From NCBI GenBank assembly GCA_963931925.1, contig OZ007574.1:33243961-33307960 (forward strand): a DNA stretch of 64,000 bases. The letters run 5' to 3'. A program made the position numbers and the translations under genes. Source of the stretch: Onchidella celtica. Its lineage: Eukaryota > Mollusca > Gastropoda > Systellommatophora > Onchidiidae. This document shows positions 16,701 through 31,700 of the stretch, piece by piece; position 1 is the stretch's first letter, and each line of letters begins with the position of its first letter. The notes beneath the pieces were generated by a model. It did no database searches. It worked only from the letters and a program-made list of their open reading frames with translations, and was not told the origin of the DNA.

Positions 16701-19700
16701 GGCGTTTTCTGGTGCCTTCCTAGTATTTTATTGTTCAGTATACAGTAATTAAACTTTAGTATTATTTAATCGATCGTCGGATCTCGTGTTTACTTTGTCT
16801 ACAGCTGTAATAGTTTCGTTTTCTAAAGGGTTGTAGTTAGATCAACAAACTCCCCCCTACTATAACGTGCTACATCAACCTCAGCTATTACAGCGTCATT
16901 CGACAAAGCTGCTGAAAGGGAGCTTAGGGAGCCCGAAAGTTGTGGTTTTATATCACAACGGCAGAGGTAATAACTTGGGTTGATGGCAGCGTGGGCAAAA
17001 TAATCATATTGTAAGGGAAATAAGGCTTCCAATGTAATCATGCAAGGCTTTTTAATCGCTAAGCTTTAAATTCTACATATTGTCATATTACGCATTGAAA
17101 GACGTAATGGTGTACGTGGGCATATTCTAAAAGGTCTTGAAGTTTGCTATAGTTTTAATAGTTTCGTTGATATTGAGACACAACTGTTGAACAGAGGAAA
17201 GTGTTCCGAATATTTTGAGCCGCAGAGAAAGACGCATTTTTTGTGTGTGTGTAGTAATAAGAAAATGGCTTTGCTTGAAAACTGTCTTTTGAAATTGTCG
17301 CTGAAGTTTCGTTCGTATCGGTGCAGGTGGTTTGTGGGCACCTCTGGTAGGGTCTCCTTCTAGCCTGTCGTTCTGTTACTTTCTGTCTATCCTCTTATTT
17401 TTCCCTTGCATAGTGTGATGACCATCACCGTGTCGACGTGCGTTCTTTAAACTCAGACTCATTGTTCGCATCGGTAACCAATCCACAAAAACATGGCGCC
17501 CACCACAATTCCAAATCTGGACGCCCAGGGCACGTGCACCCATCCCATCTGCCTAGCCATGGTCACGCCACTGCTTGACTGTAATCTGTTCTTACTATTA
17601 TTATTTTTTGTCATTGTCGTTGTTGTTTTCATTTTTGAGGAATAATGTAAGCAATTGTTAACACACAGTTAATGGCAGGTCATATTGTTATCAACTTGGC
17701 AACAAGACTCCGTGGCAACTATACTCATCTTTAACCCCTGTGTCAAAGCATTCTCATCATCTCTAATACACGATATACAGTAATTAAACTCTCTTACATT
17801 AACCATATGTCGTTTCCCCCCCCCCCTTTCTCATCAGTTACATGTACTAACCTCTCTAATCTTTCCACAGTTTGCAGGCCAAAATGAAGGGCCGTGACAA
17901 AAAGTAAATATCTATGTGTTTTCATCTTGTAATATGCACATTAGCGAACAATCACGGACTTTTATAGATGACTAAAGAGTATTTTACAATATTTTAAAAT
18001 GAAATTCTAGCTTAGAGAAAACATGACTCCATAGTCAACATGCAGTTCTCTATTTTTCTGTCGTCTCTTTCTCATTTCAGTAATCAGTATGTGGTTTACA
18101 ATGATAGCTTTAGTAATAATGGCCCATAATATTGCATCACAGTGTCATGACTTAGAGAATTATTTCATAACATCTCCCCCCCCCTCCCACCGCCCGACGT
18201 ACACAAACACACACTCTCGACTGTGAGAGAAGTATTTTGAACAACAACAACATCCACATACCTGAACATATCCTTTCCCCACGCACACACATTAAAAGCA
18301 ACGTTACAAAATTAAAATGTATTAGAAACAAAAATGTATTTTATTGCTTTTATAATATAATCAAATGCCTTCCTCGAGTACACATGCACTCGAGATGTTA
18401 TGAAATAATTCTCTAAGTCATGACACTCTGATGCAATATTATGGGCCATTATTACTAAATCTATCATTGTAAACAATGTATGATAAACAATTGTTTGTCT
18501 ATAAAATCTTGTTTTCGTATTTCTTATTGAAATGACTGGAAAGGGGTTATTTTAGATGAGTCATGTAGCCATAACCCCCCCCTCCCCCCCCCTCACATCA
18601 TCCACCCTTCCATCCTTGCTGTATCCATCCCCCCATCGCCCCGTCCCACCGTCCGTCCATCCATCCATCTATCCAACAGTCTGTCCATCCATCCGCCCAA
18701 CCATCCATTTCTCTCGTATCTAACTCTGTCTCTCTGTCTGTTTGCCCGTTTGTCTCTGTTTGTCTGTCTGTGTGTCTCTGTTCTTCCGCCCACCCAATGA
18801 TAATTATTACTTTCTCTTCTCCAACAGGCGGCTGTCAGTAGCAAAACCCGTGATTGAGTCCAAAGTTCACCCGAAAGAAAATCCTACCAAAACGGAACCT
18901 AAGTACTCATGCATTTTGTAATTTTCTATGGTTCTTTAATCCCATTTGGAAAGTTTGCCTTCGTATCATGGCAGCCCAGTTACAACTGGAGCAGACACGT
19001 CGTCGCCACAGTGTAGCGTCGGTCGGCGGGGTTTGTCTTTTTTTCTGGGGGGGGGGGGCTGGGAGAGGGGGAGGGAGTGGTAGGGATACATTTTATTTAA
19101 TTTTACACGGGCAGCTGCCTCTTCGGCTTCATCTTTTCGAATTCCAACTCCTAAGGTATCTATAGCGTGCGCAACACGAGCCCTCCGAGTTTTCGTCCTT
19201 AGCCTGTCCATGGCAATATTTTCATGGGGCCTAGGACTCCAGAACGGGGTGTCCGGGTATTGCACAGAAATCTTAATTATATAGTGTGTTTTAAGTTAAC
19301 TGTATCGATAGAATGTTGCTTGCTTGTGTGGTGATGGTGGATTTCTTGTTAAGCTCGGATTGAAAGATCGAACTTAACAGATGCACGACTTTGGTGATTA
19401 TGCGGAACCTTGTCCGACCATGGCTGGGCGCATTTGTATGGTGTGTGTGGGGGGGGGGGAATTGAAGAGGGGTGTGGGACAAAGATTTTAATGGTTGCGA
19501 GACACTGATGTAGAACATGGCTATAGTTGTATTGTAGACAGCAAAACAAGACTGTGGCGTCTATGAAGAACGATGTAGTAGGCAGTTCAGAACCTCCTTC
19601 AAGTTCAAACCTGTTTCAGGCTTGAGGCAAAACAGAGAGGAAAGAGAAAAAAAAAAATACCCATTTGATGGTTTTATACATAATAAAGTTAGGAGTGAGA

Positions 19701-28700: not shown

Positions 28701-31700
28701 GGAAAATTAGCAGAATGGAAAGCAATGTGAGGGTGAGATACATGTATTTATTGCCAACAAAAATGTTAACAAAATGATGCAGGGGCGAATAAAATACTAT
28801 TAATTATTGAGTAACATAAAATCATTCATATGACTGTCCCATAAAAAACATGGTAATCTGAAATTTCAGATGTCGTATTCCTTGAAATTTAAGGTTTACC
28901 TGCCAACCAGTGCTTAGGAAAACGTATTTAATACGTGTTTGGAGTCTTAGTGCGCAACTCCATTTCTGTGGGGGAAGAGTACGTATTTGAAGAATTTTCC
29001 CGTTTGTTGAAAAAAAAAACACAAAGATGAGAACTGAAGCCATTAGCCAAAGACCCAGTGATTCAATGGTCCTAACAGTGCACGCAGATTTTTTTTTGGG
29101 TCGATCTCAGGGGCCTGTTTTGGGTTTTGGAAAGTTGGCAGCTATGCGAGGTTCCATTTAAGACACGTATTTTCAGCAGGAAATGCGATAAGAAAGGCTC
29201 TACATTTAAGAACAGACACTATGCATTCAGAGAGTTGTATTATAAACAATTACATGTACAGAAATAAATTTATTGTTTATAAGGAATTCACTGAAAGAAA
29301 GAGATTTTATGTTTGGACATTCTCCTTAATCATGGATTACGTAATTTTGATTACGTGTGTACTTGGATTTTTTTTAATGTTGGCTATGGTTTATAACTAG
29401 CAACTAGATAAATAATGAGATATACTTGAATGTTTAATAAATTGAGCCGAGCTTGCCTAAATAATACATCTGTGGCGTACATTAGTCAACTTGGCAGCCA
29501 ATACCTGGCACAAATTTATGGTATAAAGGCTACACCACTTCCCTACCGAGACAGAGTTTGTGGGATTCACGAGATAAGGTAACACGCTTTAATTGGTGAC
29601 CCTGACGTGATTACGTACTCACGTACACACGGCGGCCATGTTGCAGGACGAAACTCAAGCGGGACAAAGTGCGTCGGTTGACACAGAGGCTAATATTTTT
29701 CCTCAAATTACAGCAGTGTCCGTCAAATTACCACCCTACTGGACACAGGACCCGCAGGTATGGTTTGCACAAGTGGAGAGTCAATTTTCGACGAGAAACA
29801 TTTCCAAGGAACAAACGAAATATGACTACGTAGTAGCCGCGTTGCCGCAAGGAATAGCAATGGAAGTCAGGGACGTGATCATAAACCCTCCGCAAGACCA
29901 CCCGTACGCCAAATTGAAGGAAAAGTTGCTCGATAGAACAACCGTGTCAGAGCAGAAACGGCTGCAAACACTGCTCACTACAATAGAGCTAGGAGACAGG
30001 AAACCGACACAGCTGTTGCGGGAAATGCAACGACTACTTGGCACAACAGTCGGGCAGATAGATCAAGCCTTAGTGAGAGAGCTGTTTCTGCAGCGGATGC
30101 CGCAGTCCATTAGGCTCATCCTAACTTCCACGGGAGCGACGGTATCACTCGAAACACAGGCCAGTCTGGCTGATAAAATGATGGAGGTTTCGCCTGGCAC
30201 ATCGATCAACAGTGTATCGGAGACATCTGCTTCTACCACTTCCGAAAACTACGTTTCTATCCAGAAACTGGAGCGAGATATGAGACAACTTTCCAATGCG
30301 GTAGCTAAACTTTCTACTAAGGTAGATGAACTGATCAAATACCAGAAACACGCCCGTGCTCAATCAGATCGCAGGAGTAGGGAGAGATCTGGTAGTCACA
30401 ATCGCGCCACCAACGCCGACAGAGACAAACAACCCTACAAGAATGGGCTCTGCTACTACCACTACAAATTCGGACAACAGGCCAACAAGTGCCAAGGCCC
30501 ATGTGAGTTCATGGAGCCGTTAAAAGACCAGGCCAGTTACTAGCGGCCAGTAACGCAGGCCAAATTCAGAAGAGCCGCCTATTATTCGTATTCGACCAGA
30601 ACACAAATCGAAAATTTCTTGTGGACACCGGAGCTGAAGTAAGCGTAATCCCCCCAACGCACCTAGAAAAACGTTTACAACAAGTCAGGACACTACAGGC
30701 GGCAAACCATTCAACCATTGCAGGACACTACAGGCGGCAAACCATTCAACCATTGCAACTTTCGGCGAAAAATCGCTAACCCTGACGTTAGGCCTTCGCC
30801 GGAATTTTTCTTGGATCTTCACCATCGCAGACACAAAACATCCAATTTTGGGAGCCGATTTCTTGACACATTATAATCTATTGGTTGATGTCACACGTCA
30901 GAAGTTAATCGATGGAACTACCAAACTTTCCACCACTGGTTCTTCGGTCATGGGTTCATCTCTCCAGCTCTCATTTTTCTGCAAAGCTTCCCAAGATAAG
31001 TATCAAAAGCTAATACAACAGCACCCATCACTGGTGAATAACAAATCATTTGAAATTTCAAATCATTCTGTGACACATAGGATTCAGACAGTAGGTCCAC
31101 CTGTCAGCGCTCGCCCACGTAGATTAGCTCCAGAAAAGTTCAAAGCAGCTAAGAACGAGTTTGATCACATGTTACAAATGGGTATCATTAGACCTTCTTC
31201 TAGTAGTTGGGCTTCCCCACTACACATGGTCAAGAAGAAGGGTTCCACCGATTGGAGACCCACTGGTGACTACAGACAATTAAATGCAATCACAGTCCCG
31301 GACAGTTACCCAATACCACATATACAGGACTTTACTAGAAATCTAGAAGGAAAGACAATTTTCTCTAAGATTGATTTACAACGTGCGTATCATCAGATAC
31401 CAGTGGAAGAAGAAGACATCTCAAAAACAGCAATAACAACCCCATTTGGACTGTTCGAATTTCTAAAAATGCCATTTGGTTTACGAAATGCAGCTCAAAG
31501 TTTCCAACGTTTCATAAATCATGTCACAAGGGACCTACCGTTTGTCTTCAGCTATATTGACGACATCCTAGTTGCGAGCAAGGACGAAGTAGAACACCTT
31601 AAACAATTGGAGCTACTTTTTACAAAGTTAGAAAGTTTCAACTTGATCATCAATGTCAACAAATGTCAGTTCGGACAAGCAGAACTAATATTCCTGGGAC

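Follow-up and report, generated by a model that had tools for sequence, protein, structure and literature searches.

How a receptor loop may grow without losing its reading frame, and whether the pieces added to it can bring phosphorylation sites along, are questions raised by a 64,000-nt stretch of the Onchidella celtica genome (contig OZ007574.1, positions 33,243,961 to 33,307,960 of the forward strand; hereafter the window). It carries a gene, termed gene 1, for a nicotinic-type Cys-loop receptor subunit whose cytoplasmic M3-M4 loop appears to be encoded by a row of very small exons. We assign a probability of roughly 0.58 to the reading that this loop follows an ancestral plan, enlarged by frame-neutral phase 2-2 exons, many of which carry kinase-like sites at their junctions. 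The ancestral plan would have consisted of an M3 exon, a phase-2 intron, a short 2-0 exon, a phase-0 intron and an M4 exon. Since exons gained inside a phase-2 intron must be 2-2, each would lengthen the disordered loop and keep the frame. Gene 1 would hold five kinds of such exons, two of them also present as a near-identical 2.32-kb tandem copy, and many would start with a junction-supplied basic residue followed by Ser/Thr at +3 or +4. An exon added or left out may thus mean a basophilic (PKA/CaMKII-like) site gained or lost. As read from the sequence the layout is sound, and the phase pattern looks like an inherited constraint. We infer that these exons reach the mature transcript, with some of them subject to skipping, that their sites are phosphorylated and by what route the duplication arose; splicing might likewise set the number of loop phosphosites, as the original prediction proposed.

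The exons of gene 1 were joined by hand in a model starting at 1640, from where the 617 residues to the stop are counted; they form one frame with no internal stop, and all introns are GT-AG. The product matches the Pfam families Neur_chan_LBD (4.4e-40) and Neur_chan_memb (6.9e-16), its best PDB match is a nicotinic acetylcholine receptor (nAChR) alpha subunit (1.6e-43), and its closest solved relatives are nAChR subunits. No relatives were found in the viral and prokaryotic collections at E 1e-3. A standard Cys-loop is present (two cysteines, 13 residues apart), but the 617-residue translation holds no vicinal CC, and the CC of the alpha subunit aligns with other residues. Judged by these features, gene 1 is therefore a divergent, non-alpha nicotinic-type subunit. 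The pore segment encoded by the 14384-14628 exon is unusual, with KE before M2 where GE is usual and a Val at the position occupied by Leu in most nAChRs. The intron phases are, in order, 0, 0, 2, 2, 2, 1, 2, then seven further phase-2 introns and a last phase-0 intron. Symmetric 2-2 exons are not specific to the loop, since the ligand domain has two of them, of 189 and 117 nt.

The interval between M3 and M4 contains 524 open symmetric AG..GT segments of 30-90 nt, which means that sequence by itself does not pin down the small exons. The ranks given below, unless otherwise stated, are by splice and coding score among 326 of these segments, the LTR element and the second tandem copy having been set aside.

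1640-1778, 4010-4054, 5649-5758, 6905-7093, 8757-8873 and 14384-14628, + strand: gene 1 exons before the M3 exon, GT-AG, open frame
15347-15524, + strand: M3 exon, donor phase 2, the same donor phase as in five C8 paralogues and one on C6
17871-17903, + strand: L1, 33 nt, phase 2-2, rank 16/326
18828-18902, + strand: L2, 75 nt, phase 2-2, junction KRLS, rank 5/326
20191-20223, + strand: L1b, copy identical to L1
21150-21224, + strand: L2b, copy identical to L2
25562-25639, + strand: L3, 78 nt, phase 2-2, LKRLEST inside, no junction site, rank 11/326
25968-26030, + strand: L4, 63 nt, phase 2-2, junction RRLS, weak acceptor, rank 82/326
26312-26356, + strand: L5, 45 nt, phase 2-2, RQST twice, acceptor tract formed by a CATC microsatellite, rank 7/326
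28702-28732, + strand: L6, 31 nt, phase 2-0, junction RKIS, rank 17 of 57 2-0 candidates
33997-34395, + strand: remainder of the loop, M4 and stop, acceptor phase 0

Between M3 and M4 the exons thus measure 33, 75, 33, 75, 78, 63, 45 and 31 nt, the first seven being 2-2. The sizes, phases and places given for them in the original prediction were recovered, with GT-AG borders and an open frame, as were the junction motifs KRLS (twice), RRLS, RQST and RKIS at the junctions named. The 31-nt exon does reset the phase for the M4 exon, as the introns from the M3 exon onward are phase 2 and the last is phase 0. The count of seven symmetric exons holds for frame and phase, but only five are distinct, the second 33+75 pair being a near-identical DNA copy. 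Skipping was said to keep the frame and does so on paper: none of the 128 exon-skipping combinations contains a stop, and they yield 96 distinct proteins with 0 to 4 strict [RK][RK]x[ST] sites. The cassette segment lies on the disordered side by its charge-hydropathy index (0.205). The modularity holds on paper and, where exons could be found, in evolution as well (0-7 cassettes in six clustered genes).

The "33, 75, 33, 75" series amounts to one exon pair plus a 2.32-kb tandem duplication, laid out as follows.

17827-19928, + strand: copy 1, the part before the minisatellite, carrying L1 and L2
19915-20146, + strand: 75-bp poly-C minisatellite, 3.1 units, running into the junction of the two copies
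20147-22262, + strand: copy 2, carrying L1b and L2b
22239-22707, + strand: the same 75-bp minisatellite after copy 2, 6.2 units

The copies differ by 5 substitutions over 2,097 positions (2,092 identical) and by a few indels, mostly in homopolymers. Their exons are identical, and so are the 60 bases flanking L1 and L2 on each side, apart from a poly-C run before L1 that differs in length. Poly-C is found at the outer start of copy 1 and at the join between the copies, and the minisatellite closes each copy. When the genome was searched with the 2.32-kb segment (48 matches listed; the best 40 of 6,444 candidates scored), the full-length segment occurred only at these two places among the 48 matches, the others being an approximately 290-bp dispersed element (18915-19204), parts of the minisatellite and a local inverted repeat. 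The duplication most likely arose by unequal exchange or slippage at poly-C and, to judge from the near identity, is either recent or recently homogenised. The dispersed element, present at 18915-19204 and about 21237-21527, begins 12 nt downstream of the first base of the L2 donor, and its copies elsewhere are mostly 80-86% identical among the matches listed.

Such near identity invites a rival account, in which the second 33+75 pair is an assembly artefact, with two alleles or reads placed in tandem, and the loop has only five symmetric exons. It would fit the indels in homopolymers and the fact that homopolymers adjoin at least two of the five substitutions. However, the copies meet in a poly-C junction of 12 C, which offers an assembler no long overlap, the two minisatellites are of unequal length, and the window contains no N and lies inside a 61-Mb contig. 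We accordingly regard an artefact as quite unlikely.

Adjacent homologous exons within one gene, the criterion for tandem duplicated exons, are found in L1-L2/L1b-L2b and also in the Xa/Xb pair of the paralogue P33533k described below. An older duplication within the gene 1 loop is suggested by the donor sides of L3 and L4, which are alike at 32 of 44 positions (16 exon and 28 intron bases), scoring 20 against at most 2 in 2,000 shuffles. Extended further into the adjoining CATC repeat, the comparison scores 64, where 300 dinucleotide shuffles reach 28 at most. A likeness between the starts of L2 and L4 (14/15) was set aside, as it is not significant alone, being reached in 1 of 300 shuffles with 42 comparisons made. 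The two RQST motifs of L5 stand seven residues apart and their codons differ at each of the four places; a repeated 4-mer of some kind arises in 434 of 5,000 shuffles, so this doubling may be chance.

The ancestral part of the plan is best seen in the paralogues. The family is large, with at least 150 LBD matches in the 1.14-Gb genome (the best 150 of 614 candidates), several of which cover the greater part of the domain in a single long open frame and are comparable in this respect to the intronless genes described in the passages of PMC6896357 at hand; this makes the lineage look molluscan. Paralogues were reached through LBD and M4 matches, giving the C8 neighbours of gene 1 and one C6 gene; a search with M3 found five places, gene 1 and gene 2 included. 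Gene 2 is a tandem paralogue at 48367-61374 whose exons of 45, 110 and 117 nt equal those of gene 1 in size and phase, and whose loop and M4 lie just outside the window. The best M3 donor is phase 2 in P33466k, P33490k, P33533k, gene 3 and the C6 gene, with the M4 acceptor taken as phase 0, and gene 2 has the same two phases. If these borders are right, a phase-2 M3 donor and a phase-0 M4 acceptor together require a 2-0 exon. Based on this arrangement, the short 2-0 loop exon looks ancestral, and a start of the M4 exon in phase 0 is most likely.

Loop exons of the paralogues were located by comparing the paralogues with one another and by splice score. The acceptor of the 2-0 exon (exon Y) is the top-scoring 2-0 acceptor in all five C8 paralogues. 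Its lengths, all 1 mod 3, are 52 nt in P33466k and P33533k, 25 in P33490k and 49 in gene 2 and gene 3, compared with 31 in gene 1; a longer P33466k variant with the same acceptor scores higher. The encoded starts are RRRSQFDNLD.. (P33466k), REKPHELSK (P33490k), RGRTQFDHSE.. (P33533k), KKKLTGLD.. (gene 3) and KSKLTGLD.. (gene 2). In sequence, the Y exon of P33466k is like that of P33533k, and the Y exon of gene 2 like that of gene 3; the acceptor of P33490k resembles those of the first pair. L6 stands in the place of exon Y. Further 2-2 exons were found in two paralogues: one of 51 nt in P33466k (exon X, RRPSVWSKRMTIRDQIE) and two in P33533k (Xa and Xb, RKQSAWSKGTRLSDTE and RRNDSPVAYIME), the flanks of the latter being alike at 116 of 187 positions and scoring 101, where 300 shuffles reached no more than 40. 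Between the starts of L2 and exon X, 15 of 20 nt agree; L2 and L6 were matched to the paralogues by position, phase and short likeness rather than through an alignment of significance. All paralogue loops (gene 2, gene 3, P33466k, P33490k and P33533k) read into M4 without a stop. The same intron was therefore found to hold 0 cassettes in gene 2, gene 3 and P33490k, 1 in P33466k, 2 in P33533k and 7 in gene 1, these counts being minima, as scoring also brings up 2-2 candidates that are not conserved, 2 in gene 2, 12 in gene 3 and 4 in P33490k.

It remains to consider what the exons carry. The motif of PKA is R-R-x-S and that of CaMKII is R-x-x-S/T. The original prediction put forward a cassette system with one kinase-like site per exon, formed at the junctions. 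The paralogues strengthen this idea: of 14 loop exons, paralogues included, 10 carry [RK]xx[ST] at their 5' end, its Ser/Thr at +3 or +4, versus 21 of 246 decoy acceptors and 9 of 60 decoys whose first base is G. To serve as a decoy, an acceptor needed both an open frame and a pyrimidine tract; L4 would fail the latter filter. Among the five paralogue 2-0 exons, which were found by splice score or homology, 3 have the site (P 0.0055 or 0.027, depending on the decoy rate used). Furthermore, a basic residue occurs at 5 of 6 distinct loop junctions versus 1 of 7 other phase-2 junctions in genes 1 and 2 (P 0.029), the M3-L1 junction being counted among the seven. R-x-x-[ST] is also present within exons, as RLES, RLSS, RFQS, the second RQST and RMES. 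Five kinase-type motifs were tried against composition shuffles of the distinct cassettes: R..[ST] occurs 8 times versus 2.2 (P ~0.0002), [RK][RK].[ST] 3 times versus 0.85 (P 0.04), and [ST].[RK] and [ST]P not once, versus 4.1 and 1.2, respectively. The final AC of the M3 exon gives Thr, so whichever exon comes next to M3 is deprived of its upstream basic residue, and the number of sites would not simply equal the number of exons. The site-per-exon idea is weakened in that Arg/Lys at phase-2 junctions already follows from the splice consensus and the exons were partly chosen by eye. A family of exons bearing kinase-like sites is supported by these counts, with a bias in exon choice.

Several findings weigh against the reading of an ancestral loop enlarged by site-bearing cassettes. 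The splice consensus AG|G, read in phase 2, gives Arg at the junction by itself, and the excess of the stricter [RK][RK].[ST] motif is weak. L1 and L3 lack a junction site, as do two of the Y exons, those of P33490k and gene 2. Because the exons are kin, they are not independent and the P values are too small; moreover, sensible peptides partly guided the choice of exons both by the earlier reader and in the present analysis, which biases the motif counts. The paralogue 2-2 exons were picked by conservation between paralogues, and the recognition of an RRxS start added a bias of its own. Their donors (X, Xa and Xb) are weak, scoring 1.2-1.3 where the cut was 2, and in the paralogues GT/AG sites in other phases stand close to both the M3 and the M4 border. 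The series of cassette counts covers the six clustered genes, leaving out the C6 gene. A tblastn comparison of L1-L6 with the paralogues at E 0.5 gave a single match, that of L2 on the wrong strand, which is chance. Finally, L4 has a poor acceptor tract (0.29 pyrimidine) and a rank of 82, and L6 comes only 17th of 57; almost devoid of a pyrimidine tract, L4 is the best candidate either for skipping or for not being an exon.

These last figures are what one would expect if some of the small exons were chance open AG-GT segments that are never spliced in, as 326 symmetric candidates were available. We consider this unlikely. Four of the five distinct cassettes fall in the top 16 of 326 (hypergeometric P 1.9e-5, uncorrected for the reader's choice), the M3-M4 join needs some phase-shifting exon, and the top-scoring 2-0 acceptor opens one in five of five C8 paralogues. 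A stronger competitor, quite possible although we place it somewhat short of even odds, is that the cassettes are constitutive and nothing is regulated, in a loop that is simply long and free of constraint; the splice consensus, read in phase 2, would then account for the basic junction residues. The Arg encoded by AG|G in phase 2 and the disordered composition would both follow from it, and U1 pairing is not significantly weaker for the five cassette donors than for the 14 other donors (P = 0.29). SRRM4-type neural microexons are marked by a UGC shortly before the 3' splice site, and none of the seven acceptors (M3 exon and L1-L6) has this motif within the last 20 nt, L3 having one within 30 nt. 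Against the constitutive account stand the scarcity of Arg/Lys at other phase-2 junctions and the Ser/Thr at +3, which lies outside the consensus and is infrequent among the decoys. A G at +5 in 0 of 5 cassette donors versus 11 of 14 others also points away from it, but the exonic side compensates and U1 energy does not differ, so weak donors were not relied on as evidence of alternative splicing.

A more elaborate proposal treats the loop as a copy-number-tuned ladder of phosphosites, in which repeat-mediated duplication within a phase-2 intron adds whole kinase-site cassettes and splicing resets their number. It draws on an inverted repeat in the L1-L2 intron.

18094-18176, + strand: inverted-repeat arm A1, L1-L2 intron, with a copy (in copy 2) at 20414-20496
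18392-18474, + strand: inverted-repeat arm B1, 98% complementary to A1, with a copy (B2) at 20717-20799

On this proposal A1 would pair with B2, looping out L2 and L1b to restore the pre-duplication loop with L1 joined to L2b, or alternatively yielding an L2-L1b circle, and cassette number might vary between individuals. Reverse complementary matches are tied to back-splicing and exon skipping alike in the portion of PMC8330042 at hand. Each copy holds the 83-nt inverted repeat, and cross-copy pairing around L2 and L1b has the same energy as pairing within a copy; the latter joins nearer arms and is the likelier. The ladder, with its looping-out and individual variation, strikes us as improbable.

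Comparison with known systems places the enlarged-loop reading in context. Cassette exons 9-11 lie in the TM3-TM4 loop of the Drosophila nAChR Dalpha5, according to Table 1 of PMC8505678. Gene 1 is similar in being a nicotinic subunit with putatively optional exons in the same loop; the Dalpha5 passage describes neither a recent tandem copy nor a site-per-junction pattern, and the splicing of the gene 1 exons is a prediction. In pHCl variant 3, a TM3-TM4 splice insertion adds a potential PKC site in fly and bee, not beetle, as given in the passage of PMC2064938 at hand; this is one insertion made by differential splice sites, in contrast to a row of symmetric exons. Splicing also varies the length of the TM3-TM4 loop of RDL, and in a mirid bug an insertion of 31 residues reportedly reduces sensitivity to fipronil (PMC6121307, in part). 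The likeness to gene 1 lies in loop-length variation, whereas the RDL passage describes differential splice sites and no exon copies. Human tandem duplicated exons are mostly ancient and spliced mutually exclusively, according to the available part of PMC9741552; like those of gene 1 they are homologous exons adjacent in one gene, but the gene 1 copies are identical, lie in a loop of disordered composition and could both be included in frame. The lophotrochozoan nAChR expansion resembles the present family in its tandem arrays and large divergent families, with the PMC6896357 passages dealing with gene and intron counts rather than loop exons. No recent tandem exon copy in an nAChR loop was found in the literature surveyed by title and start of abstract, a survey with most subscription papers outside it.

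Hence loop cassette exons (Dalpha5) and kinase-site loop insertions (pHCl) were already known, and the tandem duplication together with the series of paralogues is what is new here. Provided that the exons are real, gene 1 would show how exons for the regulatory loop of a synaptic-type channel are duplicated, caught at an early stage, and paralogues with 0, 1 and 2 cassettes in the same intron would make the frame-neutral growth of a disordered, phosphorylatable loop testable. Caution is warranted in that the basic residues at phase-2 junctions are partly supplied by the splice signal.

Two further elements lie in the loop introns of gene 1. The L6-M4 intron contains an LTR retroelement (29471-33845), Ty3/gypsy-like by eye, and the insertion looks young, as its 121-nt LTRs are identical to each other and ACATC flanks the element at either end. 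A fold-back element at 23044-24146 has inverted ends made of a 16-bp tandem repeat, with arms of at most 103 nt and 93% complementarity.

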